Shown one piece after another: positions 1-43,940 of a stretch of DNA of 49,444 bases. A program made the position numbers and the translations under genes. Source of the stretch: Candidatus Schekmanbacteria bacterium. Its GTDB lineage: Bacteria; SZUA-182. The first letter of the stretch is position 1. Every line of letters begins with the position of its first letter. The stretch covers positions 1-49,444 of the forward strand of contig JACRJN010000069.1 of NCBI GenBank assembly GCA_016235675.1, read 5' to 3'. The notes under the pieces were generated by a model. That model worked only from the letters and a program-made list of their open reading frames with translations. It searched no databases and was not told the DNA's origin.

Positions 1-14
1 ATTATACCGTTTAT

Positions 15-102
15 GTCATTGCGAGCGACCTTTAGGTGAGCGAAGCAATCTCTGCCCGTGCGTCTGAGATTGCTTCGGCGATAAGACTGCCTCGCAATGA
101 CA
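15..102. repeat. Type A palindromic repeat
   Basis: GTCATTGCGAGCGACC...CTGCCTCGCAATGAC. Confidence 0.9.
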
Positions 103-153
103 ATTCAGTATACGGTATTTTAATACGTTCCAAGTCCCTTAACAGGCAGGCAA

Positions 154-7395: not shown

Positions 7396-8181
7396 ATGCC
7401 GCGCAAAACTTTTGCCTGCCTTTTGCTTGTCTTGTCTATGTCCATACCGACTTCGGCTCAAGACCCGAATGCAGAATTTTTATTAGCCGCACAAAAAGGA
7501 AATCCGGAAAAAATTCAAGTTTTATTACAGCAAGGCGTAAATTTGGAAGCCTACGACGCCAGAGGGCATACCGCCCTGATTTATGCCTCACAGCGCAATG
7601 ATGTTAATCTGATTCATTTGCTTCTGGATCAGGGAACAAACCTGGAAACCCAATCCCCGGACGGGAAAACCGCCCTAATTCAGGCGGTAGAGCATAATAA
7701 TATTCTCGCCGCTCATGCCCTGCTCAAACGGGGGGCGAATATCGATGCCCAGGATAATGAGGGGTTGACTTGTCTGATGCGGGCGGTTCGTCAAAATAAT
7801 ATTCTCCTGGTTAATATGCTGTTAAATAAAGGAGCTAACGTATTGGCCAAATCTTCGGACGGTAAAACGGCCTTGCTGTTTGCGGCAATAGATGGGCGGA
7901 TTTCCATCTGTCACAATCTGTTGGAACGGGGCGCCGATATTAATGTTCAGGATAATAACGGCACAACCTGCCTAATCGCAGCGGTAAAAGGACGGCATGT
8001 CGGCCTGACGCGCTTTTTGCAAATGCACGGCGCCGATATTAATGCCAAAACCCTGAACGGGGAAACAGCTTTGGATTTGGCCAAGGCTGATGGACAAATG
8101 TTGATGGTCAGATTGCTGGAAAATAATATGCCTTATGAAAATATGGGAACCGGAGAGGTACAAACTGTTTATGCGGAGTAA
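7396..8181 (+). CDS. Exported ankyrin-repeat protein 1
   Basis: Signal peptide, repeated GxTALIxAxxxxNIxLVxxLLxKGANI units. Confidence 0.9.
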   Translation: MPRKTFACLLLVLSMSIPTSAQDPNAEFLLAAQKGNPEKIQVLLQQGVNLEAYDARGHTALIYASQRNDVNLIHLLLDQGTNLETQSPDGKTALIQAVEHNNILAAHALLKRGANIDAQDNEGLTCLMRAVRQNNILLVNMLLNKGANVLAKSSDGKTALLFAAIDGRISICHNLLERGADINVQDNNGTTCLIAAVKGRHVGLTRFLQMHGADINAKTLNGETALDLAKADGQMLMVRLLENNMPYENMGTGEVQTVYAE

Positions 8182-8218
8182 TGATTTAGGCTCTTTATAG
8201 ATTCCGGGGGCGTGAGCT

Positions 8219-8281
8219 TGTAGTTGCCCCATTTATGGGGCATCGCTACGCAAGATCGCCTGATAAATCAGGCAACTACAA
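8219..8281. repeat. Palindromic repeat (GTAGTTGCC...GGCAACTAC)
   Basis: TGTAGTTGCC...GGCAACTACA inverted arms. Confidence 0.6.
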
Positions 8282-8317
8282 TTCTGGCCTTCAGCATCTC
8301 GAATCGGGGGGGATAAC

Positions 8318-9064
8318 ATGCGTAACATAGTTTTAGGTCTGTTAATTTATATTGTATTGGCTCCCGCGCAAGTATTATGGGCAGATGTTGATCTGGATAC
8401 CGCCTTATATTTCGCCGCCCGCCGGGGAGACACGCAAGCAGCTTTGGAATTGGTTGATAAGGGGGCGAATCCCGGCGCCCCAATGAAATATTTCAGGGGA
8501 CGAACTCCGGTTATGGCGGCGGCCGAGGAAGGACACCTGGCTATTCTAGTTGCCATAAATACCCCTTTCGGCGATGTAGTACAGTGTGATGATTGTGGAG
8601 GAGGCGCTACCGATTTGGCGGCAAAAAACGGACATAAAGCTGTCGTAAAATTTTTATTGGATCACGGTGCAAACGTCAATAACCGGATGAAAAACGGGGC
8701 TACCGCTCTTTTATTGGCTGTTGAAAACGGGCATGACGAAGTCGTCCAGGTTTTATTGGATCACGGCGCCGATCTGGAAATAAAACACAACAGCGGGGCA
8801 ACCCCCCTGATGGAGGCGGCAAAAAGGGGAAATATCCCGATTGTCCGGGCATTGTTGGCTAAAGGAGCGGATGTTTTCGTCCAGGATAACGCCGGAATGA
8901 CCGCTTATATGATCGCCGCTAAACGGGGCAATACGGCTATCGCTCAATTGTTATTGGAAAAAAGCAGTGTTTTGGCCAAAGCCTGCGGGGATAACGACAC
9001 GGTGGGTTCGCTGTTTGAGAATAAAAATATTTATCTTAGCAGTATTATGGAATTGGGGTTTTAA
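8318..9064 (+). CDS. Exported ankyrin-repeat protein 2
   Basis: Signal peptide, ankyrin units (GATALLLAVENGHDEVVQVLLDHGADLEIK). Confidence 0.9.
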   Translation: MRNIVLGLLIYIVLAPAQVLWADVDLDTALYFAARRGDTQAALELVDKGANPGAPMKYFRGRTPVMAAAEEGHLAILVAINTPFGDVVQCDDCGGGATDLAAKNGHKAVVKFLLDHGANVNNRMKNGATALLLAVENGHDEVVQVLLDHGADLEIKHNSGATPLMEAAKRGNIPIVRALLAKGADVFVQDNAGMTAYMIAAKRGNTAIAQLLLEKSSVLAKACGDNDTVGSLFENKNIYLSSIMELGF

Positions 9065-9092
9065 TAGAAAATAATACCAATTTCTTTTCTTC

Positions 9093-9108
9093 CGGCATTT
9101 GGTTTGCA
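9093..9108 (+). promoter_or_regulatory. Candidate sigma-54 -24/-12 element upstream of third ankyrin gene
   Basis: CGGCATTTGGTTTGCA with GGCA/TTTGCA boxes at correct spacing. Confidence 0.45.
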
Positions 9109-9274
9109 TATTTTTATGTTATGGTGTAGTCCATTCAGACCCGTATTAGGCTTTAGGCTCCGGGCTTCAGGCTCAAAAAGAGACCCTCCCCTGGAGGGTA
9201 TTTGAATTAGCCCAAAGCCCAGAGCCCGAAACCTAATAAAGTATAATTCCGGAGCCACCAGGGAGATTTAACCT

Positions 9275-10366
9275 ATGTTACTTTGCCTGCAAATTATCAC
9301 TATCTTAATTACGCTTATATACTCACCGGCAGCACAGGCTTATAACCTCAAATCCGACCTGTTTACGGCGGCGGAACAGGGCGACGATGAAACGCTGATA
9401 AAATTAGCGGGAAAGCAGGCGAATGTCTCCGCACGGGATGAGAAAGGCGACAGCCCCTTGATTATAGCCACAGAACAAGGGCATATCCATACAATTGAAA
9501 CATTACTGAATTTAAAAGCCGATATGAACAGCGCCGACAAACAGGGCAACACGGCCTTAATAATCGCCTCCGGCCAGGGGAACCATGAAGCGGTCAATCT
9601 TTTATTGAGCAAGGGTGCGAATGTCTTTATTTATAACAGCCAGGGGGAAAACGCCCTGACCACTGCGGTAAAAAATAATCAATTGCCGATAGTGGAAATG
9701 TTATTGAACAAAGGTGCGGAAATCGACAGTTACAATGCCGATTCATATACCGGACTAATGCTGGCCTCTATGGCCGGGAAGCTGGAGATCGTTAAATTGT
9801 TGCTGAATAAAGGGGCAAGCCTGAACGCGGCCACCGACTCCGGCGAGACTTCCCTGATGCTTGCGGCCTCCAAAGGGCAAAATGAGGTGATTAATTTATT
9901 ACTGGAAAAAGGGGCGGACCTAAACGAACCGGACGATTTGGGAAAAACGCTTTTAATGAAGGCGGCTTTCGGCGGACATGAAAAGACTGTCGATATGTTG
10001 CTCAAAAAGGGAATGAAACCCAATGCCCGGACTAAAAAAGGCTTGACGGCGCTTATATTTGCCGCCCAGGAAGGCCAGCTTGATGTGGTTAACTTGCTGC
10101 TGGATAACGGGGCGATTATTGATGCGGGCATAGAGGACGGGTCTACCGCTTTAATGGCCTCGGTTATCAAGGGACACCTGGCGGTTTCCAATCTGTTAAT
10201 CGAAAGAGGCGCTAAATTTTCCGGTCATGACGCCGAAGGACGAGACATCATGAAGCTTGCTGAAGACAAAGGCTATTATGACCTGGTTTTGCTTTTGGAA
10301 CAAAAGGGTTTCAGCCAGGAGCAGAAACCGGCACATAAGGAAGAAATATCTGTGGATAAAAGGTAA
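9275..10366 (+). CDS. Exported ankyrin-repeat protein 3
   Basis: Signal peptide, about 9 ankyrin units. Confidence 0.9.
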   Translation: MLLCLQIITILITLIYSPAAQAYNLKSDLFTAAEQGDDETLIKLAGKQANVSARDEKGDSPLIIATEQGHIHTIETLLNLKADMNSADKQGNTALIIASGQGNHEAVNLLLSKGANVFIYNSQGENALTTAVKNNQLPIVEMLLNKGAEIDSYNADSYTGLMLASMAGKLEIVKLLLNKGASLNAATDSGETSLMLAASKGQNEVINLLLEKGADLNEPDDLGKTLLMKAAFGGHEKTVDMLLKKGMKPNARTKKGLTALIFAAQEGQLDVVNLLLDNGAIIDAGIEDGSTALMASVIKGHLAVSNLLIERGAKFSGHDAEGRDIMKLAEDKGYYDLVLLLEQKGFSQEQKPAHKEEISVDKR

Positions 10367-10370
10367 ACAA

Positions 10371-11468
10371 ATGTCTGGCCGTAAAATAAACACTCCTCGG
10401 GCGAACAGCCTTTCCCTTGTATATTGGGCGCTATACATAACCGCTATTGCCGTTTTAACCCTCTCCATCATGACCAAAATCTGCCATGCCAATGAAATCG
10501 ATACGGATTTATTAGCCTCGGCGGAAGAGGGGGATGTCCCCGGCTTAAAAGAATTATTGAAAAGCGGAGCGAATATAGAATGCCATGACAAAAACGGGTT
10601 AACCCCGCTGCTGGTAGCCGCCGAACAAGGCCATTATATGGCTATCGATTTCCTGCTCAACAAACGGGCTAATATCAATGCCGTATCCGGAAAGGGAACC
10701 GCTTTAATGCTGGCGGCCATGAAAGGACGCAACCGCACCTTGCAGCTTTTGTTGAATAAAGGGGGCAAAATCGAAGCGCGGGATGAAGAGGGCTATACCG
10801 CCCTGATACTTGCCGCAGCCTGTGGCCAAAACAGCAGTATTAAATTATTATTGGACAAGGGGGCGGACATCGAGGCTAAAACTTTCAACGGATTTACCCC
10901 CCTGATGCTGGCGGTCTGGGGCGGTCATGCCCAGGTCATTAAAACCTTGCTGGAGCGCGGTGCAGATTTTCACAGTAAAAACGATGCTGGGCTGACACCG
11001 GTTATGATCGCGGCCGAAGCGGGATATTTGGAAGCAATCCTGTTATTGTTGTCATCGGGCGCCGATATAAACACCCAGGCCAATAACGGGCATACTGCCT
11101 TAATGCTGGCCTCATGGGAAGGCCATACCTGGTTGGTCAAGGCTTTGCTGGCCCATGGCGCCAAAATCGAGGCAAAAGCGAAAAACGGGGAAACCGCTTT
11201 GTTATTGGCAGCCTTAAACGGCCAGACCGATACGGTAAACGTCTTGCTGAATGCCGGGGCTAAAATTAATGCCATAGGCAACGAGGGTGAAACCGCCCTG
11301 CTGCTGGCCACGACAAGCAATCAGGTAAATACCGTCAAAACCTTACTGGGCAAAGGGGCGACGATAAAAGCCCGCACCAATAAAGGAGAAACCGCCTGGG
11401 CCTATGCCGAATCTCAGGAATATGTCGACCTGCTGCTGTTGTTGGAAAAGGCCGGAGCCAGATGGTGA
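10371..11468 (+). CDS. Exported ankyrin-repeat protein 4
   Basis: Ankyrin units; ATG at 10371 follows gene 3 stop by 4 nt, in frame with ORF 10257..11468. Confidence 0.88.
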   Translation: MSGRKINTPRANSLSLVYWALYITAIAVLTLSIMTKICHANEIDTDLLASAEEGDVPGLKELLKSGANIECHDKNGLTPLLVAAEQGHYMAIDFLLNKRANINAVSGKGTALMLAAMKGRNRTLQLLLNKGGKIEARDEEGYTALILAAACGQNSSIKLLLDKGADIEAKTFNGFTPLMLAVWGGHAQVIKTLLERGADFHSKNDAGLTPVMIAAEAGYLEAILLLLSSGADINTQANNGHTALMLASWEGHTWLVKALLAHGAKIEAKAKNGETALLLAALNGQTDTVNVLLNAGAKINAIGNEGETALLLATTSNQVNTVKTLLGKGATIKARTNKGETAWAYAESQEYVDLLLLLEKAGARW

Positions 11469-11773: not shown

Positions 11774-11917
11774 ATATCGTTTTCTAGTTGTCATTCCCGA
11801 ATGGTGTTATCGGGAATCTGGTTTTAACTGCTTGAAAAACCATATCCGTCCCCGAAGTCTTTATCGGGGGTAAAAGCATTCGGGGATGACAGTGTGTCTT
11901 ATCAACTAGTACACGAT
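11774..11917. repeat. Type B palindromic element (GTCATTCCCGAATG core)
   Basis: ATATCGTTTTCTAGTTG...CAACTAGTACACGAT arms; core GTCATTCCCGAATGG...CATTCGGGGATGAC. Confidence 0.8.
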
Positions 11918-11941: not shown

Positions 11942-12050
11942 GTCAAAAGCGAGGCAGCCTTATCGCCGAAGCAATCTCAAACGCATGGGTAGAGATTGCT
12001 TCGCTCCGCTCGCAATGACGTTTCGGGTCTCTGATTGAGAACGCTACCAA
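11942..12050. repeat. Type A repeat, left end degraded, right arm TTGAGAACGCTACCAA
   Basis: GCGAGGCAGCCTTATCGCCGAAGC...CTCGCAATGAC...TTGAGAACGCTACCAA; arm shared with 43803-43940. Confidence 0.8.
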
Positions 12051-17931: not shown

Positions 17932-19647
17932 TTATCGGGGCGAACATTCAAAAAAACAAAACGGGTCTTTCCGGGTAAAAACATCCTGCCCGAAACCGTA
18001 GGAAACAGCCGGACAACCGCCGCAGGCGTGGCGGATCGGGCAAGCCTTACAAGCCGCACAGCCGGTACGGTATTTATCCGCTTGTGCGCCATCATAAATC
18101 TGGGCTAGTTTTTGCCGGGTAAGATTGCCCAAAGGCGAGGGGAATTTCCGGCAGGCGTGTACCTCGCCGTCAGGCAAGACCACGAGGAAGTTAAAAGCCG
18201 CTCCGCAGCCGTAACCGGTACAGCCGCCGGAAAGCCGGCCATCATCCCGGTAATTCAGGATATTAAACAAATTATCCTTAAAGGTTAAAATGGGATTGGC
18301 TGAACCGGCCTTTTTATAGGATTTTAGAAAGCGTTCATAATCTTCTTGGCCCGGCAGGTTCAAACCCGCCCCATTCCCCACCCGGGACAAACGATTGAAG
18401 GTAAAAAAATCGGCCCATCCCCTCAATTGTTCGGCCAGAGGCAGCACCTGATCGAGGTTATCTCCCGTTAAGGTAAGCATAACATGGGATGTAATCCCCC
18501 ACTTTTTCAAAACGTTGAGAAAACCCAGCGCCTTTTCATAATGCCCCTGTCCGCGCACCTGATCATTATGATCCTTCAAGCCCTCTAAGCTGACCTGATA
18601 AAAGCGCGGGCGCTGTATGGCCAACATTTTTTCTAAAAGCGATTCTTTAACCGGATTGCCCAAAACAGAGGTACTGAATCCATAATCGGAAGCGGCCTGA
18701 TAGAGTTCAAAAAAATGGGGATAAAAAAAGGGGTTGCCGCCGGTAAAGCCGACATGCCCGTCCACCCAGCGCTCCCGGCAGAAATCATCCAGATCGGCTA
18801 AGATTTTCAAGGATTGGGAAAGGCTTAAGGGGGTATAATTATAACGATCGTAGCAATGCTTACAATTCTGTTCACAAACATTGGTTAAATGCCATTGCAG
18901 GGAAAAGACCGGTGCTGAGAGCGCTTCTTCTGGAATCGGCAATTTTGCACCGAAATTGGCGGGATTACGACGGATGCGGGAGGGAGGGGTTAATAAAACG
19001 CCTTGCTGGATTTCCCGCCGGATAATCTTTTTTATTGTTCCGACCGTTACCTGGTTGGCTTGGGCGGCTGCCTGAAAAGAAATGTTTTCCGTAACTATTT
19101 TAAGGGCCAGTAAATCTTCACCCTGGGCTTTCCGGAGTTGCACTGATTTACGGCTTTCATCCCACCAGACGAGAACATATTGTTCCCCTAGGTGCGGGAT
19201 GACCGGCTCTGCTAAAAATTTATCAAAATCATCGGCTAATTGCCAGGATAAATGCAGCAGTTCAAGATCGGGGTTTACCATCAATTGCGCGATATTTATT
19301 AAGGACTTATTCCTGCCATTGATTTGCCCCGTAGCGTCATTGCGAGGCAGCCTTATCGCCGAAGCAATTTCATCCACACGCATGGAGATTGCTTCGCTCC
19401 GCTCGCAATGACACTTCGGGGTCTCCCTATTGCTACGCGACCAATTGATTTGCCAAAAGGCGCGCTCGATAGCAGCCAAATCGGCTAAATACGGAACAAG
19501 CCCTGCCTGAATCTTTTGGGTTAAAAATTCCGGAAAATCCGGAGCGTCCGGCCTATTCCCTTCAGAAAACAATTCTCTCCAGGCGTTCCCGCCCAATATT
19601 TTATAACAGCGCGGATAAATATTTTCCAAAGAGTTCAAGCACATCAA
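17932..19647 (-). CDS. Radical SAM/SPASM peptide maturase, resembling selenobiotic-family (SbtM-type) maturases; carries an in-frame palindromic repeat insertion
   Basis: CEQNCKHCY (CxxxCxxC), SPASM-like Cys cluster CAACKACPIRHACGGCP; adjacent SbtA-like precursor. Confidence 0.75.
   Translation of the reverse strand: MMCLNSLENIYPRCYKILGGNAWRELFSEGNRPDAPDFPEFLTQKIQAGLVPYLADLAAIERAFWQINWSRSNRETPKCHCERSEAISMRVDEIASAIRLPRNDATGQINGRNKSLINIAQLMVNPDLELLHLSWQLADDFDKFLAEPVIPHLGEQYVLVWWDESRKSVQLRKAQGEDLLALKIVTENISFQAAAQANQVTVGTIKKIIRREIQQGVLLTPPSRIRRNPANFGAKLPIPEEALSAPVFSLQWHLTNVCEQNCKHCYDRYNYTPLSLSQSLKILADLDDFCRERWVDGHVGFTGGNPFFYPHFFELYQAASDYGFSTSVLGNPVKESLLEKMLAIQRPRFYQVSLEGLKDHNDQVRGQGHYEKALGFLNVLKKWGITSHVMLTLTGDNLDQVLPLAEQLRGWADFFTFNRLSRVGNGAGLNLPGQEDYERFLKSYKKAGSANPILTFKDNLFNILNYRDDGRLSGGCTGYGCGAAFNFLVVLPDGEVHACRKFPSPLGNLTRQKLAQIYDGAQADKYRTGCAACKACPIRHACGGCPAVSYGFGQDVFTRKDPFCFFECSPR
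19318..19454. mobile_element. Type A palindromic element inserted in frame in the maturase gene
   Basis: 11-bp direct repeats ATTGATTTGCC at 19318-19328 and 19444-19454 (spacing 126 nt) around GTCATTGCGAGG...GCTCGCAATGAC (19336-19412). Confidence 0.75.
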
Positions 19648-19654
19648 CCCTATA

Positions 19655-19782
19655 ATATCATTTTCTGGTTGTCATTCCCGAATGGTGTCATCGGGAATCT
19701 GATTTTAACTGTTTGAAAAACCATATCCCCGATAAAGGCATTCGGGGATGACAGGTTGCCGTATCAACCAGAAAATGATATA
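19655..19782. repeat. Type B palindromic element
   Basis: ATATCATTTTCTGGTTG...CAACCAGAAAATGATAT perfect arms; core GTCATTCCCGAATG...CATTCGGGGATGAC. Confidence 0.9.
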
Positions 19783-19799: not shown

Positions 19800-20033
19800 T
19801 TACGAACAGGAAGTTCCGGCGCTGCAAGGCATTGCCCCGGCATTCTTGCCGGAATTTTCATGTGATGAGTGGCCTTGTTTAGGCGCCGGTTTCTCTTCGG
19901 TTACACCTTTTGCCGTGTCTCCGGTTGTCGCGGTGGTGGAAGTGGAACAGCCGTTTATCCCCGTCCCGAATCCGGCAATAAGACCGGCTAAACCGATATT
20001 TGCCAGCGTTTTCTTTAATTTCTTAGCATCCAT
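19800..20033 (-). CDS. Putative RiPP precursor resembling selenobiotic-family peptides (SbtA-type, Cys form)
   Basis: MDAKKLKKTLANIGLAGLIAGFGTGINGC leader and C-terminal CSAGTSCS*; immediately upstream of the radical SAM/SPASM gene on the same strand; ORF track start at 20045, internal ATG 20033 preferred. Confidence 0.65.
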   Translation of the reverse strand: MDAKKLKKTLANIGLAGLIAGFGTGINGCSTSTTATTGDTAKGVTEEKPAPKQGHSSHENSGKNAGAMPCSAGTSCS

Positions 20034-24630: not shown

Positions 24631-24790
24631 AAGGGGTTCTGCGCAATTCCCATTTCTTGTCATTCCCGAATGGTGTTATCCCCGATAAAAACATTCGGGG
24701 AGGAATCTGGTTTAAAAACAACACAATATCCCCGATAAAGGCATTCGGGGATGACAAAATGAGACATATAAACAGTTGCGGCACAGCCCC
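24631..24790. repeat. Type B palindromic element(s), rearranged
   Basis: TTGTCATTCCCGAATGGTGTTATC...CCCCGATAAAGGCATTCGGGGATGACAAAATG. Confidence 0.75.
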
Positions 24791-26156: not shown

Positions 26157-26301
26157 AATGCTGTTGACTTAAGATGTTGGTGTTGTCATCCCCGAATGCC
26201 TTTATCGGGGATATGGTGTTGAATTTAAAACCAGATTCCCGATAAAGGCATTCGGGAATGACAAAATGGGAGTTGCGCAAACCCCTTAAGTCAACAGCAT
26301 T
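26157..26301. repeat. Composite palindromic element: AATGCTGTTGACTTAAG arms around type B core
   Basis: AATGCTGTTGACTTAAG...CTTAAGTCAACAGCATT with GTCATCCCCGAATGCC...GGCATTCGGGAATGAC. Confidence 0.9.
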
Positions 26302-26522: not shown

Positions 26523-26966
26523 ATGCCGCGTAATAAAAGCCTTAAACGGTTGGAAAACCACCAAGGTTTTACTTTGATCGAATTATTGGTGGTTATGATT
26601 ATCATCGGCCTGTTAGCCGCCCTGGTAGGCCCTAAAATGTTCGGCAAGGTAGGAAAATCCCGGCAGCAGGCGGCCAAAGCTCAAATAGAACTTTTCGGGA
26701 CGGCGCTGGATGCTTTCCGTCTTGACACAGGCCGTTATCCCACTGCTGCCGAGGGGTTGGAAGCCTTGCGTAACGAGGGCGGGATAAACAATTGGGACGG
26801 CCCTTATTTACCCAAGGAAATCCCCAAAGACCCATGGAACAATGCTTATGTATACACCTCTCCCGGTTCCCATGGCGATTACGATTTGCAATCTTACGGT
26901 CGTGACGGGGCTGCCGGCGGAGAGGGAGAGGATCAGGATGTCAACAGTTGGTCATCCCTGGAATGA
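26523..26966 (+). CDS. gspG: Type II secretion major pseudopilin GspG
   Basis: GFTLIELLVVMIIIGLLAALVGPKMFGKVGKSRQQAAKAQIELFGTALDAFRLDTGRYPTAAEGLEAL. Confidence 0.95.
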   Translation: MPRNKSLKRLENHQGFTLIELLVVMIIIGLLAALVGPKMFGKVGKSRQQAAKAQIELFGTALDAFRLDTGRYPTAAEGLEALRNEGGINNWDGPYLPKEIPKDPWNNAYVYTSPGSHGDYDLQSYGRDGAAGGEGEDQDVNSWSSLE

Positions 26967-27417
26967 CAGAGGCCTTACCCTCGTGGAAATGATCATTGTC
27001 ATGATCATTGCAGGACTGCTTGCCGCTTTGGCCGCCCCCCGCATAGGCAGCAGCCTGTCTAATCTGCGTCTGAATACCAGCGCTCGTCATTTAGCCGCCG
27101 TTTTGCGCAATACCCGCTCCAAAGCCATCGCTGACAAAAAAACTTATCCGGTAGTCTTTGCCCCGGAAGGGAATAAATACAGTTACCCTGGCGACGCAAA
27201 AGAAAAGGAGGTCATTTTACCGGAAGACGTGCAAATTAAAGAGCTTAGGGATGAGGAAGGCGAGGATATTGCCGAAGCCGGCCAGATATTATTTTTCCCC
27301 AAGGGAAATTCCAGCGGCGGCAGGGTAACCATGACCAATGAGAAAGAACAGGTGTTTTATATTAAAGTGGAAACCATCAGCGGGCGGGTCAGGATTCTGC
27401 GGGATGAGGATGAGTGA
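26938..27417 (+). CDS. gspH: Type II secretion pseudopilin GspH
   Basis: RGLTLVEMIIVMIIAGLLAALAAPRI; ATG 26938 overlapping gspG. Confidence 0.8.
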   Translation: MSTVGHPWNDRGLTLVEMIIVMIIAGLLAALAAPRIGSSLSNLRLNTSARHLAAVLRNTRSKAIADKKTYPVVFAPEGNKYSYPGDAKEKEVILPEDVQIKELRDEEGEDIAEAGQILFFPKGNSSGGRVTMTNEKEQVFYIKVETISGRVRILRDEDE

Positions 27418-27542
27418 ACAAATAATTATGTTCACACAAAGACACAGAGACACAAAGAATAAAAGATAAAGATGGAAGGATGAAGTTTTTTGTTGTCTCA
27501 GCTTTTTCTCTGTGGCTTTGTGACTTTGTGTGAAAAAATAAT

Positions 27543-27986
27543 ATGTTTAAACTTCTAAAACAAAAATCCGGCTTTACACTGCTTGAGGTCACGTTAGCTT
27601 TGACTATTTTAAGCATCGGTCTGGGGATATGCTTGCAGCTTTTTTCCGGCAGCCTCCAGGCAGTGCAGAAATCGGAAAAATATACCGATGCCGTTTTTTT
27701 AGCCCAAAGCAAGATGGAAGAATGGACGCTGAAAGATCCCTTGGAAGAAGTGGCGGAAAGCGGCGATTTCGGCAGCGATTATAGCGATTTTTCCTGGCAT
27801 GTTGAAGTGTCGCCCTATCAATACGCCGAAGAACCTATTTCCGGGCAGGTAAACAATGACTCAAAGGTTTCCATCAATATGATGCAGATAAAAGTCAGGG
27901 TCAGTTGGCAAGAGGGGGAAAAGGAACACGGGCTGGAATTAATATCTTTACGCACCTGCCTGGAAAAAGAGGCGGCTTTTCTTTAA
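27543..27986 (+). CDS. gspI: Type II secretion pseudopilin GspI
   Basis: SGFTLLEVTLALTILSIGL, operon position. Confidence 0.8.
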   Translation: MFKLLKQKSGFTLLEVTLALTILSIGLGICLQLFSGSLQAVQKSEKYTDAVFLAQSKMEEWTLKDPLEEVAESGDFGSDYSDFSWHVEVSPYQYAEEPISGQVNNDSKVSINMMQIKVRVSWQEGEKEHGLELISLRTCLEKEAAFL

Positions 27987-27992
27987 TGATTA

Positions 27993-28122
27993 AGGTAGTT
28001 GCAAAAGTATCTGTCATCCCCGAATGTCTTTATCGGGGATATGGTTTTTCAAGCAGTTAAAACCAGATTCCCGCTCAAAATCGTTGCGGGAATGACACTT
28101 CGGGGGACTTTTGCAACTACCT
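27993..28122. repeat. Type B palindromic element between gspI and gspJ
   Basis: AGGTAGTTGCAAAAGT...ACTTTTGCAACTACCT arms. Confidence 0.9.
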
Positions 28123-28151
28123 CTAATCCTCTTTGAATTAGGAATCGTAAT

Positions 28152-28910
28152 GTGAAAACTTCTGCCAAATATCACAACCCCCAAGGCTTCACCTTACTGG
28201 AATTAATCATCGCTATGACCATTTTAGGCCTGATGATGGCGGTAATCATGGGGGGATTTCATTTGGGCATACGGGCATGGGAAAAAGGGGAGGCCAAAGC
28301 CGAGCACAACCAAAAATTACGGGTGGTTTTGGATAATATGCTGGAAGAAATTCGCTCCGCCCATTCTCTATTTATACAAAGTGACGAAAAAGTTAAATAT
28401 CATGCTTTCTGGGGGGAGAATGACCGCATCAAATTCATAACCACCGCCTCCGGTTTACAGGGTGAAGCCAATATTTCCTATACCAGAGCGGTAACTTATT
28501 ATGTATCGTCCGGAACCGGTCTGGTTATGAAGGAAACAGCCTGTTTAGGCGGCGATTGTTTTGAGGATTTGGAAAGCCGGGACGAGGTAGTCTTAGACCC
28601 CAACGTAAGCAGTATTCAATTTCAATATTGCTATATTCCCGAACCGAAAAAAGGTGAAGAGAAAGCCACTCAGTCCCAGGCAGAATGCGTATCCGTTTGG
28701 GATCCGACGGAAAAAGAATCCATCAATTTCGAAAAACAGGAAGCCGCGCCGGCAGAAGAAGAACCGGCAGGGCCACCGGTACAAAAATTGCCTAATTGGG
28801 TGGAAGTTACCATATCCTTAGAGTTCGAGGATGAAAATAAATCCCGTGAATTGCCGACCTTGAAAATACCGATTTATTTGGGAAAGGAAACAGCGGCGCC
28901 CAAGGAGTGA
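28152..28910 (+). CDS. gspJ: Type II secretion pseudopilin GspJ
   Basis: QGFTLLELIIAMTILGLMMAVIMGGFHLGIRAWEKGE, operon position. Confidence 0.8.
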   Translation: MKTSAKYHNPQGFTLLELIIAMTILGLMMAVIMGGFHLGIRAWEKGEAKAEHNQKLRVVLDNMLEEIRSAHSLFIQSDEKVKYHAFWGENDRIKFITTASGLQGEANISYTRAVTYYVSSGTGLVMKETACLGGDCFEDLESRDEVVLDPNVSSIQFQYCYIPEPKKGEEKATQSQAECVSVWDPTEKESINFEKQEAAPAEEEPAGPPVQKLPNWVEVTISLEFEDENKSRELPTLKIPIYLGKETAAPKE

Positions 28911-29008
28911 TACCAATCCGCTTTCATAAATTGGAGATTGGCGTCAGGAGGTAACTCCTGACGCCACGAGCGTTGTGCTGTCAGGAATTACCTCCTGACA
29001 GTAAAATT

Positions 29009-29097
29009 GTAGGGTGGGCTGTGCCCACCATTAAGCAATGGGGATTTTTAAAGTACTCGTGAGTTTGATTTAATGGTGGGCGCAGCCCACCCTACAA
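29009..29097. repeat. Type D palindromic repeat between gspJ and gspK
   Basis: TGTAGGGTGGGCTGTGCCCACCATTAA...AATGGTGGGCGCAGCCCACCCTACA. Confidence 0.9.
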
Positions 29098-29098
29098 A

Positions 29099-30172
29099 TT
29101 GAAATATATGACAGAAGAAAAAGTCAAATTACTATTTAATAACAGTACTCAACCCCAACAACGCGGCGTAGCCTTAATGCTGGTACTCTGGGTAATGGCC
29201 ATATTAAGCATTATCGTGGCGGAGTTTGCCTTCTCCATGCGCACCGAATTGAAAATCGCCGGTAATTATAAAGAGGAAGCGGAAAATTACTACCGTGCCC
29301 AGGCCGCCATCCAGCAAGCCCTGACGGAGATCCTGCATCCGGATGTAGCCTATCATTATGTCGATGGCGGAAAGCTGATTTTCGGCAAAAAGGAGCAGAC
29401 TCTCGAAGGGGAAGCCCCCGCTCAAAAGGCGGAAACTGAAAACACCGTACCGCAACGAGGTAAATTACCCTTAAATAACGGCTTTTTTTCTTACAAAATA
29501 GAGGACGAAGAGGGGAAAATCTATCTGAATCGCTTTGCCATAGATAATGAACCCAACCGCCAGATTCTTTCCCGCCTGCTGGAAATGGGGGGAAACGTTA
29601 CCGATGAAGCCGAGCGGGAGACGATCATTGATTCCATCATGGATTGGCTGGACAAGGATGATCTGCACAAAATTAACGGTGCCGAAGACGATTACTATAA
29701 GGGACTAGACCCGCCCTATGAATGTAAAGACGGCCCCTTCGATACGGTGGAAGAGCTTTTGCTGGTGAAAGGCATGACCCCGCAAATATTATTCGGCACT
29801 ACAGACGAACAGGGCACCACCTCCGGCGGCATCGCCAAATATCTCACGGTATGGGGCACTAATCGCTTTAATCCCTATACCGCCGATGAAACCACCCGTG
29901 TTATCATGTTCGGGGAGGAACAGGCGGCGGCCATGGAATTATATGACGAAAACGGCAAGCCTAAAAACCGTGTCTTTTCCACCCGCTTTTCCATTATCGG
30001 TCGAGGCTATCCCCAAACCGGAGCAGGGCAAAGAATGGTCAAGGCCGTGGTAGTGCTCAACCGTAAAAACGGTGTTCCATCGGCACGGATAATGCATTGG
30101 AATGATAATCTGATAGGGTATCCCTGGGACGACAACCAAAAACAAAATCAACCAGATAGAGCGGAAAACTGA
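29099..30172 (+). CDS. gspK: Type II secretion GspK
   Basis: GVALMLVLWVMAILSIIVAEFAFSMRTELKIAGNYKEEAENYYRAQAAIQQAL; SAM-like domain. Confidence 0.9.
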   Translation: MKYMTEEKVKLLFNNSTQPQQRGVALMLVLWVMAILSIIVAEFAFSMRTELKIAGNYKEEAENYYRAQAAIQQALTEILHPDVAYHYVDGGKLIFGKKEQTLEGEAPAQKAETENTVPQRGKLPLNNGFFSYKIEDEEGKIYLNRFAIDNEPNRQILSRLLEMGGNVTDEAERETIIDSIMDWLDKDDLHKINGAEDDYYKGLDPPYECKDGPFDTVEELLLVKGMTPQILFGTTDEQGTTSGGIAKYLTVWGTNRFNPYTADETTRVIMFGEEQAAAMELYDENGKPKNRVFSTRFSIIGRGYPQTGAGQRMVKAVVVLNRKNGVPSARIMHWNDNLIGYPWDDNQKQNQPDRAEN

Positions 30173-31704
30173 TGTTCGCCACCAATCGCAGTCTTGGCAT
30201 AGACTTAAAAGACAACAGATTACGCCTGGCTTATTTAGCTGCTTACGGCAAGAAAATCAAACTGCTCAACTATACCAGTCTGCCGCTGCCCCCGTTAAAT
30301 GACGGGACTTTATCCGAATATGAAACCGCCTTCGTGGAAAGCCTGCGTAATTTTATCGGCAAAAACCATATCAAACCCAAGCAGGTAATCATCGGTCTGC
30401 CTCAAAAAGATATAATATTCCGCAAGATAGAAATCCCGGCGGTCAAGCCTGAGGAAATCAACCAGATTCTGGAATTTGAAAAACTGCGCCATATCCCTTT
30501 TGTCGACGGCGAAGTGAATTTCGATTATCAGATCATACGCCGAAAAGAACCGAATAAACTGGAACTGATATTAGCAGCGGCCAAAAAAGAACGCATCGCT
30601 TATCTGCTTTCATTATTTAAAAGCGCCGGACTAAGTTACAACCGGCTGGAATTGACCACCTTTGCGTTGTTTGTTGGGCTTCATCCGCAGCTAAACCAGA
30701 TCGAAAATTATGTTATCATCGATGTGGGCCTGGAAGAAATAGAATTCGCGCTGATTCAAAATAACAAATTCGTCTTCTCCCATAGCGCCGACAAAAACAC
30801 CCCGCCTATCGCCCGCCTGATAAAGATTGAAGCCGACACGGAAAATCTGGAAAAAATTCAAGCACCGATGGACGAAGAAATCCGCATTTTAGCGGATAAA
30901 ATCAGCGAGGAAACACGGTTGCTGTTAACCGGCTGGCAGCAAAACAACAAAGATTTGTCCGTTCAGAATCTTTTTATCAGCGGCGCCGGGGCTAAAACCT
31001 TATTGGCCGATTACCTGGAAGCCTGTCTTGGAATCGCAGCTAAAATCTGGGATCCGGCGCTGGGAATAAACGCCGACGGAATAAAGCTGCCGCCGGAAGG
31101 GGCTGCCGCCGTGGGTTTGGCTCTGGAAGGGATGCCCGAATCCGTTCATGGGTTGAATCTTCTCCCGCCCGAAGAACAAACGGTCAGGGAAGAAAACAGC
31201 GTGGTAGCTCCCATCGTATTGGGAGTTATATTAAGCCTGCTTTTGGCGACATTGGGCGCAAGTTATCTGATTAAGGAACGCCAGGAACTGGAGCGTACCA
31301 ACAAGCAAATCGCCGAACTGAAACCGCAATTAGCCGAGATTGAAAAACTGACGACGCGCTACCGGCAATTTGAAGAACAAAAGGGAAATCTGCTGAAGCT
31401 AACCCATAAAACTTTGTCGGTTTTGGAGGTATTGAAGGAATTGACCATCAAATTGCCGACCGACGTCTGGCTGGATAATTTCAAAATGACCCATAAAGAG
31501 GTGGAAATCGCAGGCTATGCCGAATCCGCTTCAAATTTAGTCCCCATGCTGGAAGCATCCAGGCTTTTTCGTGATGTGCAATTTACCTCAGCTATTACCA
31601 CCGGGGGAATCACGGATGAAGGCAAGGAAAAATTTAAGCTGAAAATACGCCTGGAAAGCCAAGAAGACAGCGAAGCAGAGGAAGAAAATGGCGCTGCAAG
31701 ATAG
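30172..31704 (+). CDS. gspL: Type II secretion GspL / PilM-like actin-fold protein fused to PilN-like region
   Basis: SLGIDLKDNRLRLAYL...IIGLPQKDIIFRKIEIPAVKPEEINQILEFEKLRHIPF; C-terminal TM + coiled coil. Confidence 0.85.
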   Translation: MFATNRSLGIDLKDNRLRLAYLAAYGKKIKLLNYTSLPLPPLNDGTLSEYETAFVESLRNFIGKNHIKPKQVIIGLPQKDIIFRKIEIPAVKPEEINQILEFEKLRHIPFVDGEVNFDYQIIRRKEPNKLELILAAAKKERIAYLLSLFKSAGLSYNRLELTTFALFVGLHPQLNQIENYVIIDVGLEEIEFALIQNNKFVFSHSADKNTPPIARLIKIEADTENLEKIQAPMDEEIRILADKISEETRLLLTGWQQNNKDLSVQNLFISGAGAKTLLADYLEACLGIAAKIWDPALGINADGIKLPPEGAAAVGLALEGMPESVHGLNLLPPEEQTVREENSVVAPIVLGVILSLLLATLGASYLIKERQELERTNKQIAELKPQLAEIEKLTTRYRQFEEQKGNLLKLTHKTLSVLEVLKELTIKLPTDVWLDNFKMTHKEVEIAGYAESASNLVPMLEASRLFRDVQFTSAITTGGITDEGKEKFKLKIRLESQEDSEAEEENGAAR

Positions 31705-32299
31705 AGAAAAAACCATTATCTGGATTGGCGGGGTGATAATTCTGCTGATTATCGCCTATCGCTGGGGCATTACTCCGGTAATGGAAAGTCAGGCCGGGGT
31801 AAGGGATAAACTGGCCGCCAACAGCTTAATATTAGCTAAAAGCAACAATAAGATAGCCCGGCAAAAAGAACTGGAAACCCAAATTAAAACAGTCAATGGG
31901 GAAATAACTTTGGCGGAAAAAAATTTACTTAAAGGGGAAACCCCGTCACTGGCGGCGGCTGAATTGCAAAAATTGTTGAAAAACATAACCAATAAAGAAA
32001 ATGTTAAAATCAGCAGCGAAAAAATAATCTCACCGCAGGACGCGGACGAATATCAAAAAATACCGGTGCAAATTGCACTCAATTGCCTGGTATCCGATTT
32101 GAGGAAGGTTCTGTTCCAAATTGAAAATTGCCCGACGGCTTTGATCGTCGCAGAAACCAAAATCAAGGTCAACGATGTGCGCAATCCCAGTAATGTGGAA
32201 GCCATGTTAACCGTTTTCGGGCTGATTAAGAATAAAATGCCGGAAGACGACGGGCAGCAGAAACAGGAAGCGCCGGCGTCTAATGGTAAGCGTTCATAA
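31688..32299 (+). CDS. gspM: Type II secretion GspM-like protein
   Basis: Single N-terminal TM followed by coiled coil; overlaps gspL; operon position. Confidence 0.7.
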   Translation: MALQDREKTIIWIGGVIILLIIAYRWGITPVMESQAGVRDKLAANSLILAKSNNKIARQKELETQIKTVNGEITLAEKNLLKGETPSLAAAELQKLLKNITNKENVKISSEKIISPQDADEYQKIPVQIALNCLVSDLRKVLFQIENCPTALIVAETKIKVNDVRNPSNVEAMLTVFGLIKNKMPEDDGQQKQEAPASNGKRS

Positions 32300-32304
32300 A
32301 ATAT

Positions 32305-32570
32305 GATTTTTATAGGCTTCAGGCTTTAGGGTCTGTGCCGGAACTGTTCATTTTGCATCAAACTCCCGATACCGTCATTGCGAACGACGAAGGAGTGAAG
32401 CAATCTCAATAAGATACAGGGATTGCTTCGCTTCGCTCGCAATGACTTTTTAGGTAAAATGTGACTTTTGATAGTTGCGGCACAGTCGCTTTAGGCTACG
32501 GGCTTAAGAAAATGCAAAAAATTTTAACCCGGAGCCTGAAGCCCGGAGCCCGAAGCCTATAAAACAACAG
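32305..32570. repeat. Nested palindromic repeat (GGCTTCAGGCTTTAGG outer arms; type A core 32374-32446)
   Basis: TATAGGCTTCAGGC... and ...CCCGAAGCCTATA; internal GTCATTGCGAACGACG...CTCGCAATGAC. Confidence 0.8.
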
Positions 32571-32579
32571 GTATAACTT

Positions 32580-33323
32580 GTGCGTAAAACCATTATCAAT
32601 ATATTATTACTGGCTTGCATAGCCTACCTGGGATTTTACCTGAAAAAATTCTGGGAAGTACCCTATCAAGGGGAGCAGACTGTCCTGGCGCAAGCCAAAC
32701 CCAGACAAAATAAAGCTCAGGAAGATAATGAAACCGGCAAAAGGCAGGCAAGTTTAGCGGATTATAAGATTATCGGGGAACGGAATTTGTTCAGACCTGA
32801 TCGGCGGGAATGGACTCCACCACCACCACCACCACCGCCGCCACCAAAACCGGCCGCGCCGGAGCCGCCTCCACCGCCACCGCCGTCACCACCACCGTCC
32901 TATCCGGATCCGATATTAATTGGTATAATTGACGATAATGGCGAAAATGCAGCTCTGATGCGCGGTCACAAGCGGGAGGAGATCAGTTCGCCGCATCAAC
33001 AACAGGTGCGGGGATTTAATCGCTATGCGCCTCCGACGCGTTATAGGATAATAGAGGAACCGATGGGACGTTTTCACGTCGGCGATATTATTTCGGAGGC
33101 GAAAATCGTTAAGATCGATTCCGATCGGGTGGTGTTGGAACGCGAGGGCAAGGTATTTCAGGTCTTGCTGCGTATCACCAAAAAAGGTAGCAGCTCGTCA
33201 AGCCCCGGCCACAGCGGTTTTGTGCCGCCTCCGCAGCCCGGAGGCGATATGGATGCTCCCGATGAAAATCAACAAGACCCGTTCATGATGAGAAGACGCC
33301 CGATACCCCCGCGGATGAGGTAG
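32580..33323 (+). CDS. gspC: GspC-like inner-membrane protein with poly-proline linker, no obvious PDZ domain
   Basis: N-terminal TM; ADYKIIGERNLFRPDRREW; YPDPILIGIIDDNGENAALM; position before gspD. Confidence 0.65.
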   Translation: MRKTIINILLLACIAYLGFYLKKFWEVPYQGEQTVLAQAKPRQNKAQEDNETGKRQASLADYKIIGERNLFRPDRREWTPPPPPPPPPPKPAAPEPPPPPPPSPPPSYPDPILIGIIDDNGENAALMRGHKREEISSPHQQQVRGFNRYAPPTRYRIIEEPMGRFHVGDIISEAKIVKIDSDRVVLEREGKVFQVLLRITKKGSSSSSPGHSGFVPPPQPGGDMDAPDENQQDPFMMRRRPIPPRMR

Positions 33324-33333
33324 CTTGTTACTT

Positions 33334-33419
33334 GATGTTTCGGCGTGTCCTCACGCCGAAACAATAAAAGGGGAACGTTACCCCTCGATAGTTTCGGTGT
33401 GGGGACACACCGAAACATC
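33334..33419. repeat. Type E palindromic repeat (GATGTTTCGG...CCGAAACATC)
   Basis: GATGTTTCGGCGTGTCCTCACGCCGAAAC...GTTTCGGTGTGGGGACACACCGAAACATC; copy at 35629-35713. Confidence 0.9.
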
Positions 33420-33565
33420 AAATGAAATTATACAAAAGCGACGTAGCGACGTAGTCCCAGCCCTTTAGGGCTGAATTTCCAGGGCTAAAGCCCTGGCACT
33501 ACGACTACGAGTACAACGGGGGAATATTTTTTGACAAAACCAAGGTTAGCAGGAGATTTATAAGT

Positions 33566-35494
33566 ATGGCTAAAGGAAAACATAAAACGCATTGGATACT
33601 ATTGGGGATCTTTATTTTGCTGAGCGCTTGCGCCCCAACGCCTAAGATCGACTCTATGCTGCCGCCGCCGGAGCCAGGCCCGGCCCCTGAAGCAAAAGAT
33701 TCGGCAACACCCGCTGCGCCTCCTGTACCAGAAGAGAAAAAGGAAGTCAAAGAAGAAAGCAAGGAAGCAAAGCCTGAGGATGCCGCCCGGCTTTCGCCGG
33801 AGGAAGTAAAGGAAACCGGCAAAGGCAAGCCCGGCGTGGAAATGGAGGATGACAAATATATCGTCCTCAACTTTGAAGACGCCGATCTGGACGTGGTAAT
33901 GCAAACCATCACCGAACTGATCGGCATGAACTATATTCTGGGGCCGAAGGTCAAGGGCAAGATTACCATTCAGACCTACAAAAAAATCCCCAGGGAGAGC
34001 CTGGAAGAGGTCTTACACGCCATTTTATCTCTCAACGGTTTTTCCGCCGTCAAATCCGGTCATTATTACAAAATAGTCCCGGCGCCGGAGGCTAAGCAAC
34101 ATCCCATCCTCACAAAAATCGGTAAAGACGAGACGGAATTGAGCGACGAGGATGTGATGGTCACGCAAATCATCCCCCTGGAGCATATCAGCGCCAATGA
34201 TGTATCCAACATCATCAAACCCCTGGTCTCCAAAAACGGGAATATCATCACGCACAAAGAAACCAATTTGTTGATCATCAACGAGGTGGAATCAAACTTA
34301 AAACGCCTCTTCAAAATTATTGATTTATTGGACGTTCCTACCGAGGAAAGCAGTGGGGAGAAGATTTACGTCTATTATGTGGAAAACGCCGACGCTTCCA
34401 AATTAGCCAATACCCTGAATTCCGTTTACAAAAAACAAAAAGGGGAGAAGAAAACCCCCGCTGCCACCGCGGCCGCCTCCGCCATCCAAAAGGCTAAAGA
34501 GGCGATACGCAAGAAAGAACCAGTCCCGGCTCCTCCGCCGGTAGGCGCACCCGGCGAGAGCCTGGAATCGGAAACGGAGGGGGAAATCAACATCATCGCC
34601 GACCCGGACATCAACGCCCTGATCGTCAAAACCACCCCCATCGATTTCAAACGCCTGATGGAGTTGATTACCAAGCTGGATATTCTGCCGCAACAGGTAT
34701 TGGTGGAGGTGCTGATTGCTAATGTGACGCTGGATAACTCTACTAAATTTGGATTGGAATGGGCAACGGCACAACTAGTAAAAGATGAAAATGGTAATGT
34801 TACTAGCATTGGACGCCTGTCCGGCAATAGCAGCGTTTCCGGCTTAATCGGCGGAAGTGGGTTAACTTATTTGATGCAGCACACTAATAGTTTGCGGGCG
34901 ATAATTTCTCTTTCAGCCAGCAAAGGCAATGTAAATATTCTTTCCAGCCCGCATATCTTGACCGCTGACAATAAAGAGGCAAGTATCAACATTGTTGACC
35001 AAGAGCCGATTCCCAAAACAACCATTACCGGAACCAGCGGAGCCAATAATCCAACCCAGTACTCGTATGAATATAAAGATGTGGGTATCAAACTGACAAT
35101 TACCCCTAATATCAACGAGAAAAAATTTGTAGCGCTTAAGATTGGTTTAGAGGTTAGTGAACTAAAGAGTGGGGGTGATCCAGCAAAGAACATAGGCCCA
35201 AGTTTTGCCAAAAGGGATGTAAATACTTCATTGGTAGTGCAAGATGAGCAGAGTTTGATCATAGGTGGCTTGATTAAGGAAAGGCGAAGCACAACAAAAT
35301 CGGGAATCCCTTGGTTAATGGATATTCCTGTTTTGGGCTATCTCTTTGGCAGCATCAGTGAAGAAACGGTTAAAAATGAGTTGGTTTTGATGATTACTCC
35401 ACGAGTAATTAATAACAGCCAAGAAGCAAAAGCGCTAACCGATAAATACGAACAAGACATGCAAAAACTCAAAGAAATCATCCAGCAAAAGTAG
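33566..35494 (+). CDS. gspD: Type II secretion secretin GspD (lipoprotein)
   Basis: LLSACAPTP lipobox, VLNFEDADLDVVMQTITELIGMNYILGPKVKGKITIQT, secretin domain VPKTTITG...SLIIGGLIKERRSTTKSGIPWLMDIPVLGYLFG. Confidence 0.93.
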   Translation: MAKGKHKTHWILLGIFILLSACAPTPKIDSMLPPPEPGPAPEAKDSATPAAPPVPEEKKEVKEESKEAKPEDAARLSPEEVKETGKGKPGVEMEDDKYIVLNFEDADLDVVMQTITELIGMNYILGPKVKGKITIQTYKKIPRESLEEVLHAILSLNGFSAVKSGHYYKIVPAPEAKQHPILTKIGKDETELSDEDVMVTQIIPLEHISANDVSNIIKPLVSKNGNIITHKETNLLIINEVESNLKRLFKIIDLLDVPTEESSGEKIYVYYVENADASKLANTLNSVYKKQKGEKKTPAATAAASAIQKAKEAIRKKEPVPAPPPVGAPGESLESETEGEINIIADPDINALIVKTTPIDFKRLMELITKLDILPQQVLVEVLIANVTLDNSTKFGLEWATAQLVKDENGNVTSIGRLSGNSSVSGLIGGSGLTYLMQHTNSLRAIISLSASKGNVNILSSPHILTADNKEASINIVDQEPIPKTTITGTSGANNPTQYSYEYKDVGIKLTITPNINEKKFVALKIGLEVSELKSGGDPAKNIGPSFAKRDVNTSLVVQDEQSLIIGGLIKERRSTTKSGIPWLMDIPVLGYLFGSISEETVKNELVLMITPRVINNSQEAKALTDKYEQDMQKLKEIIQQK

Positions 35495-35626
35495 GGTGGG
35501 CTGTGCCCGCCGATTCTATGCCGGGCAATTAATATTTAGCGGCAGAAATTGTGTAATATATCCATCTTTGCGGGTACGGGCAGCGCGAGAGGGGTACCAA
35601 ACGGTGGGCACAGCCCACCCTACAGA
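35491..35626. repeat. Type D repeat, left copy flanking DUF104-VapC module
   Basis: GTAGGGTGGGCTGTGCCCGCCGATTC...ACGGTGGGCACAGCCCACCCTAC; near-identical interior to 36402-36534. Confidence 0.92.
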
Positions 35627-35628
35627 TC

Positions 35629-35713
35629 GATGTTTCGGTTTGTCCTCAGGCCGAAACTATCAAGGGGTAACGTTCCCCTTTACGGTTTCGGCGTGGGGAC
35701 ACACCGAAACATC
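35629..35713. repeat. Type E palindromic repeat
   Basis: GATGTTTCGGTTTGTCCTCAGGCCGAAAC...CACACCGAAACATC. Confidence 0.9.
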
Positions 35714-35765: not shown

Positions 35766-35987
35766 ATGGCAGTAATAAAAGGCATTTTCAATGGAAACAC
35801 CGTAAAACTTCTGGAGCCTGTCAAGGCCAAAAAAGGGATGATTGTAGATGTAATTTTTAAGGATAAGAATGAAAAAGATTCCGCGTTTGAGACCGCTTTA
35901 AAACAAGAATTTGAACGTATGGATAAAGGCTTTCCCTTAGGGGGGGGGCCGTATTATCATTCAAGAAGCGAACTACATGACCGATAG
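35766..35987 (+). CDS. DUF104/AF2212-like antitoxin
   Basis: MAVIKGIFNGNTVKLLEPVKAKKGMIVDVIF; overlaps downstream PIN toxin. Confidence 0.8.
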   Translation: MAVIKGIFNGNTVKLLEPVKAKKGMIVDVIFKDKNEKDSAFETALKQEFERMDKGFPLGGGPYYHSRSELHDR

Positions 35988-36405
35988 GCTTTTTATTGAT
36001 ACTAATGTACTTCTTTATGCCTATGACCGGAATGCGGGAAGAAAACACGAAATCGCCAAAGAATTAATCAAAAAATGTTGGTTACAAACATCCGGGGTGA
36101 TAAGCATACAAGTACTGTGTGAATTTTTTGTCCGGGCAACCCGCCCCAATAATACCATTGTGTATGCACAAGAAGCAGCGGCTATTATTAATAATTTATC
36201 TGATTATTGGCAAATAATTATTCCAGATGTTTTTATGATTCAAGAGGCTATAAGAGGCAGTAAAGTCTACTGCTTTTCTTTTTGGGATGCAATGATTTGG
36301 GCTGCGGCCAAAAAATCAGGAATCAAAAAATTATACACCGAAGATTTTCAATCTGGGCAAGTTGTTGAAGAAGTGGTATTTGTCGATCCGTTTAAAGAAG
36401 TGTAG
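35977..36405 (+). CDS. vapC: PIN-domain toxin (VapC family)
   Basis: FIDTNVLLYAYD...FWDAMIWAAAKKSGIKKLYTEDFQSGQ. Confidence 0.88.
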   Translation: MTDRLFIDTNVLLYAYDRNAGRKHEIAKELIKKCWLQTSGVISIQVLCEFFVRATRPNNTIVYAQEAAAIINNLSDYWQIIIPDVFMIQEAIRGSKVYCFSFWDAMIWAAAKKSGIKKLYTEDFQSGQVVEEVVFVDPFKEV

Positions 36406-36534
36406 GGTGGGCTGTGCCCACCGAATCCTACGCCGGGCAAGCATAACTTTAGCGGCAGAAAATAAATCTGTCCATCTTTGCGGGTACGGGCAGCGCGAGA
36501 GGGGTACCAAACGGTGGGCACAGCCCACCCTACA
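36402..36534. repeat. Type D repeat, right copy flanking DUF104-VapC module
   Basis: TGTAGGGTGGGCTGTGCCCACCG...CGGTGGGCACAGCCCACCCTACA. Confidence 0.92.
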
Positions 36535-36572
36535 AATCGATGTTTCGGCCTGAGGACAGAATTTTAAAAACT

Positions 36573-43802: not shown

Positions 43803-43940
43803 TTGGTCGCGTTCTCAACAGAAGACCTGAAGCGTCATTGCGAGCGAAGCGAAGCAATCTCCATGCGTGCGGAGAGATTGCTTCGGCGATAAGGCTGCCT
43901 CGCAATGACGCTTTGGGTGTCTTATTGAGAACGCTACCAA
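43803..43940. repeat. Type A palindromic element with TTGGTCGCGTTCTCAA / TTGAGAACGCTACCAA arms
   Basis: Outer arms plus GTCATTGCGAGCG...CTCGCAATGAC core (43834-43909). Confidence 0.9.

Follow-up and report, generated by a model that had tools for sequence, protein, structure and literature searches.

The window, the whole 49,444-nucleotide stretch of DNA that we analysed, encodes SbtM, the radical SAM/SPASM maturase of the thio(seleno)oxazole system, together with an SbtA-like precursor peptide (Table 1). SbtM scores 652.6 bits against its family model (cut-off 350), and the peptide scores 28.1 bits against its own, slightly below the cut-off of 30.5. Inside the maturase gene lie two copies of an 11-bp sequence, ATTGATTTGCC, at an offset of 126 bp; identical 11-mers at this spacing occur at 3 of 49,307 window positions, the sbtM site among them. 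Between both copies sits a 115-bp palindrome that holds GTCATTGCGAGG...GCTCGCAATGAC, and the hairpin of this interval folds much better than shuffled sequences (z = -4.2). The open reading frame is uninterrupted across the insert, which reads WSRSNRETPKCHCERSEAISMRVDEIASAIRLPRNDATGQIN. The first-pass annotation had described a palindrome bracketed by direct repeats and adding 42 codons in frame; on re-reading the sequence, the repeat coordinates and the spacing of 126 are correct, the inverted arms and the strong fold are present, and the frame is open throughout.

Table 1. Features of the sbtM site and of related repeats in the window
Feature	Position	Strand	Basis
sbtM, SbtM-family radical SAM/SPASM maturase, 571 aa (insert = residues 69-110)	17932..19647	-	TIGR04082
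sbtA-like precursor peptide gene, 77 aa, upstream partner of sbtM	19800..20033	-	TIGR04081
Putative left duplication copy CATTGATT, 7/8 versus AATTGATT	19317-19324
Left 11-bp direct repeat ATTGATTTGCC	19318..19328	+	sequence
Inserted palindromic element, 115 bp, without outer left arm	19329..19443	+	126-bp addition missing from homologues (protein level)
REP-like hairpin 1 of core, GTCATTGC...GCAATTTC	19336..19371	+	at least 190 genome matches of this half; reversed control pattern 0
REP-like hairpin 2, inverted, GAGATTGCTTCGCTCCGCTCGCAATGAC	19385..19412	-	inverted repeats I1 and I2 plus fold
Intact shell arm GGTCGCGTAGCAATAGGGAGACC	19420..19442	-	exact pattern match; 81 such arms in genome with at most 2 mismatches
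Canonical 8-bp target duplication AATTGATT, right copy	19443..19450	+	AANNNNTT rule from 28 exact duplications
Right 11-bp direct repeat ATTGATTTGCC	19444..19454	+	sequence
Shell-plus-core copy, intergenic (GG..CC at 43805-43938)	43803..43940	+
Partial family copy, core plus right arm	11943..12048	+
Second palindrome family TGTCATCCCCGAATGCCTTTATCGGGGAT	11789-11880, 19670-19754, 24658-24757, 26184-26264, 28012-28073

Aligned with homologues of other phyla and of its own class, the latter about 50% identical, the window SbtM shows one large extra segment. Where relatives read ERAYREVKSETIPIPDVARQLMLNP and similar, it reads ERAFWQIN, the 42 aa, and then GRNKSLINIAQLMVNP; once these 42 residues are subtracted, its linker is within one residue of the ancestral length. 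The expectation that homologues would lack the segment is borne out by at least 8 SbtM homologues, three of them from the same class. No relative appears to have the approximately 42 aa that the in-frame palindrome adds to SbtM, an absence established at the protein level and against genomes of which the nearest share the class only, at about 50% protein identity. Across 16 homologues the cysteines of the motif and of SPASM show no variation, and the window SbtM keeps them all.

The insert lies near the N terminus of the protein, as it would if the true start of SbtM were downstream and the palindrome belonged to a 5' leader. We give almost no weight to such an annotation artefact: class relatives have an N-terminal domain that aligns in frame with residues 3-69, on the 5' side of the insert, at 33-42% identity (E as low as 7e-10), which marks this stretch as genuinely coding. 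Mapped on an AlphaFold model of SbtM (17 sequences, pLDDT 82.7), as the first-pass annotation had proposed, the insert lies within low-confidence stretches (77-89 and 94-119) between domains at about 88. The insert is compatible with a disordered loop, a low pLDDT being expected for any insert without homologues.

The palindrome is a member of a large repeat family. The genome is a 2.98-Mb draft, about 90% complete, in which we examined the stretches around the copies. The core, GTCATTGCGAGGCAG..TTATCGCCGAAGCAAT, has at least 190 matches in this draft and a reversed control pattern has 0. Many copies have a longer shell in common, built of two arm types, GGTAGCGTTCTCAATAAGAGACC (96 matches) and GGTAGCGTAGAAATACAGAGACC (81 matches), for about 180 arms. 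Intact copies, dozens of which are present, end in GGTAGCG...CGCTACC, have a modal length of 136 bp and are without coding capacity of their own. They carry the terminal inverted repeats GGTAGCGT...ACGCTACC, of which the sbtM copy retains one end only, and their interior consists of two inverted REP-like hairpins (GTCATTGC...GCAAT). The minus-strand arm GGTCGCGTAGCAATAGGGAGACC had been matched to the element at 43803-43940; the likeness holds for the tip GGTCGCGT and for the inner end and fails for the remainder, and exact arm matches lie in other contigs.

The best match elsewhere in the draft, in contig C23, shares 99% identity with the SbtM copy over 111 bp; another, in contig C118, shares 97% over 117 bp. 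This near-identity to another genomic copy argues that the SbtM copy moved recently, in agreement with the original proposal. It also bears on the idea that the insert is a domesticated, functional addition to SbtM, with which the intact gene, the retention of all invariant residues and the adjoining precursor gene would fit. The insert is nearly identical to intergenic copies, so nothing points to selection on the peptide, for which a disordered structure is predicted; we regard domestication as highly improbable.

Movement of the family is recorded in the sequences that flank it. An exact 8-bp duplication borders 28 of 46 intact shell copies, against 1.25 expected by shuffled flank pairing, and the duplicated site has the consensus AANNNNTT. 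Three copies (L058, L060, L099) have the same rule-breaking base in both duplicates; the duplication is therefore 8 bp, not 4 or 6, and the element itself is GG...CC. A clean insertion then adds 136 + 8 = 144 bp, or 48 codons. The added length is divisible by three in 27 of the 46 copies and its mode is 144 bp; because the copies are mutually related, we claim no selection for length. Nor do we claim selection for open frames: intact elements have a mean of 1.20 open frames versus 0.93 in shuffles, a weak excess among related copies.

At its right end the sbtM copy is canonical: ...CGCGACC is followed by AATTGATT, a fitting target. At its left end the outer arm is missing: the flank CATTGATT (7/8) leads into TGCC, after which comes the inner arm CCGTAGCGTCATTG; an arm-inner variant, CCCGTAGCG, is also present in other family copies. 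The visible 11-bp repeat is made up of 7/8 target bases plus TGCC on both sides. Compared with a clean insertion, the sbtM copy is short by 18 bp. As this equals six codons, the full and the shortened states are both in frame. Transposition with target duplication, as first proposed, is borne out in that duplications flank intact copies; it needs amending in that the 11-bp repeat is not the family standard of 8 bp and the copy is left-truncated.

These irregularities invite another account, in which no transposase placed the copy: staggered-break repair or replication template switching captured part of an element already present, and the 11-bp repeat is the repair footprint. The missing outer left arm, a repeat of 11 rather than 8 bp and the TGCC/CC microhomology at the left junction all fit it, and a copy in the isoleucyl-tRNA synthetase gene (IleRS; see below) is also trimmed at its ends and has no clear direct repeat. 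We nonetheless consider capture unlikely: the right end is exactly canonical, the adjoining AATTGATT obeys the AANNNNTT rule, and 144 and 126 bp lie exactly six codons apart, as expected for later in-frame trimming.

Insertion into coding sequence is not confined to sbtM. Among about 128 core copies scanned for long ORFs running on past both ends, four in-frame cases came up beyond SbtM, which makes five long ORFs in total, in keeping with the earlier suggestion that the family moves and creates protein segments. The SbtM and IleRS inserts are confirmed against homologues. The IleRS gene (TIGR00392; L203 59-2962, G000:C61) is the sole IleRS gene found in the draft; it carries a 33-aa core in frame after MDE, at residues 421-453, and this segment is missing from 9 of 9 class relatives and from the best solved structures. 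Judging from this comparison, the repeat family appears to have inserted in at least one essential gene as well. We set aside an AlphaFold model of IleRS, built on 10 sequences, for its low quality (pLDDT 59).

Of the other three ORFs, one of 811 aa in C118 has a complete shell copy in frame, with an 8-bp duplication and 144 bp added. Two unrelated ORFs, one of 1546 aa (C108; L146 955-5595) and one of 445 aa with an NTP_transf_5 domain (C118; L204 1212-2549), contain nearly the same 52-codon unit in frame, in which the core lies inside a second shell, GGGACTTGG...CCAAGTCC, of about 152 bp; what by eye looks like a 4-bp duplication (CTTA or CTAA) brings the unit to 156 bp in all. No homologues of the 811-aa ORF were found among the relatives, and matches to the 1546-aa ORF were too weak and partial for use, so both inserts rest on ORF continuity and duplications; the 445-aa ORF is likewise without usable homologues for an independent check. 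Two scan hits were left out: L114, which is upstream of a pilin-like gene and perhaps outside its coding part, and L113, a 234-aa frame that looks spurious. A further copy of the second shell occupies window positions 1-145, just before an ATG at 154.

The occurrence of the core without the GGTAGCG shell, and within the second shell in two ORFs, raises the question of which part is mobile. The core could itself move as a REP-type single-strand element served by a Y1/RAYT transposase, with the GGTAGCG shell as a passenger or as a second element that it entered; core relatives occur in other phyla, and the genome has five genes that encode Y1_Tnp proteins. The duplications, however, lie exactly at the shell ends, and most top-scoring copies include the shell. 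Moreover, in the flanks of the five Y1_Tnp genes (about 1.5 kb on each side) the core motif occurs in one, at the locus edge, and none of the five is bracketed by the core. We assign this alternative a low probability. The search for a mobiliser covered the transposase families ISL3 and Y1_Tnp: an ISL3 transposase, suggested by the 8-bp duplications and the GG ends, is absent from the draft genome. In the same draft, 20 regions behind unpaired arms, examined for an autonomous element, gave short copies only.

Our preferred reading, to which we give a probability of about 0.86, is that the palindrome, non-autonomous and MITE-like, moved recently, landing in frame in sbtM, and was then trimmed on the left. 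A transposase acting in trans would have moved the copy into AATTGATT, an A+T-rich target within the codons of the linker that joins the N-terminal helical domain of SbtM to the rest of the protein. The full insertion of 144 bp, or 48 codons, would have kept the frame. The outer left arm would later have been lost by an 18-bp net contraction, perhaps via template switching on the duplicated target, to leave 126 bp (42 codons) and the 11-bp repeat; template switching on the right-hand duplicate may account for the TGCC by which the repeat reaches 11 bp. Out-of-frame and stop-containing outcomes would have been removed by selection, and the extra peptide would have been tolerated, presumably as a neutral, disordered loop.

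Direct support for a recent in-frame insertion comes from the lack of the segment in homologues, from the duplications and the many copies of the family, from a near-identical copy elsewhere and from the in-frame copies in other ORFs. Counting against the explanation are the failure to find an autonomous element or a transposase with these ends in the draft, and the non-canonical left junction, with its missing arm, its 7/8 match and its 4 further matching bases.

In-frame insertion of palindromes is already known from two kinds of repeats. Rickettsia palindromic elements (RPEs) and their Wolbachia counterparts are palindromes of 100-150 bp that occur between genes and in frame in ORFs of unrelated conserved proteins (PMC2229807, PMC10969869); RPE-4, RPE-6 and RPE-7 frequently have the motif ATGAC in common (PMC3767692), and the target duplication of RPEs is given as "?" (PMC2229807, Table 1). 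The comparison with RPEs made in the first-pass annotation is apt as far as behaviour goes. Taking RPEs by their description, the present family resembles them in its in-frame insertion in unrelated ORFs, here five long ones, and in its core, which opens with GTCAT, the reverse complement of ATGAC. It differs from them in its host lineage, in the share of copies in frame (5 of about 128, most of the family being intergenic, versus nearly half in R. conorii) and in its clear target duplication.

The second kind are the CGTC-tagged REPs, in which a CGTC/TGTC tag is followed by a stem that opens with AT, and which form inverted dimers (PMC3733652). Inside ORFs of several phyla these repeats encode 20-30 aa, tRNA synthetases included, and the four described families have a stem of 8-9 bp, a loop of 4-5 nt and a CCA tail (PMC3733652). 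The two outer ends of the present core, GCGTCATTGC and TGTCATTGC, have both the tag and the AT. The half-hairpin differs in its 5-bp outer stem, long interior and CTC or TTC tail, and the dimer is enclosed in terminal inverted repeats with a target duplication; given a stem, loop and tail unlike those of the four families, we term the hairpins REP-like only.

The enclosing shell recalls bacterial MITEs (Correia/NEMIS, RUP, ERIC, YPAL), which are short, non-coding and present in many copies, have terminal inverted repeats and target duplications, and have been reported in in-frame fusions (PMC2229807). The family looks like a MITE in being shorter than about 300 bp, multicopy and without a transposase gene, with terminal inverted repeats and target-site duplication. 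Its GGTAGCG/CGCTACC ends and 8-bp AANNNNTT duplication, however, match no family that we can name; its interior is a REP-like dimer, and the search of the draft yielded no autonomous partner. What is new is the architecture, a REP dimer within a MITE with clear target duplications, inside an ORF too. A possible, still tentative extension is that a MITE platform with an inverted REP-like dimer repeatedly inserts peptides in frame in a bacterial lineage outside Rickettsia, also into essential genes, the usual added length being a multiple of three in both shells (144 and 156 bp).

Unclear target duplications have left it open how protein-coding palindromes of the RPE type move. In the present family, behaviour of a related kind comes with defined ends, 8-bp duplications, near-identical copies of recent origin and a decorated IleRS gene, apparently the only one in the draft; together, these make coding insertion and peptide tolerance testable outside Rickettsia. 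Odd segments in proteins predicted from environmental genomes, CHCERSEAIS for example, may also have their explanation in such insertions.

The core type extends beyond this lineage, and the shell appears local: a looser core pattern occurs in 7 of 106 genomes tested outside the class, and the first shell arm type, sought in 40 relatives, gave nothing apart from scattered background with 3 mismatches. Palindromes of the form GTCATTGCGAG...CGAAGCAATCTC, with different middles, are present in genomes of other phyla (G012, G046, G051, G062 and others). An Rfam scan of the window gave no match, and neither it nor the literature searched supplied a name for these palindromes or a description of the GTCATTGCGAG repeat; the papers that contain the string are unrelated. 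The window also holds a second palindrome family, TGTCATCCCCGAATGCCTTTATCGGGGAT, with a REP-like look: a TGTC tag, AT at the stem base and, often, inverted pairs. Elsewhere in the window are four consecutive genes for ankyrin-repeat proteins (7396-11468) and a gene run that resembles a type II secretion/pilin operon, from GspG-like to GspD-like (26523-35494). Near-identical 84-bp blocks (96%; 35555-35638 and 36465-36548), part of a larger repeat array, flank a gene at 35977-36405.
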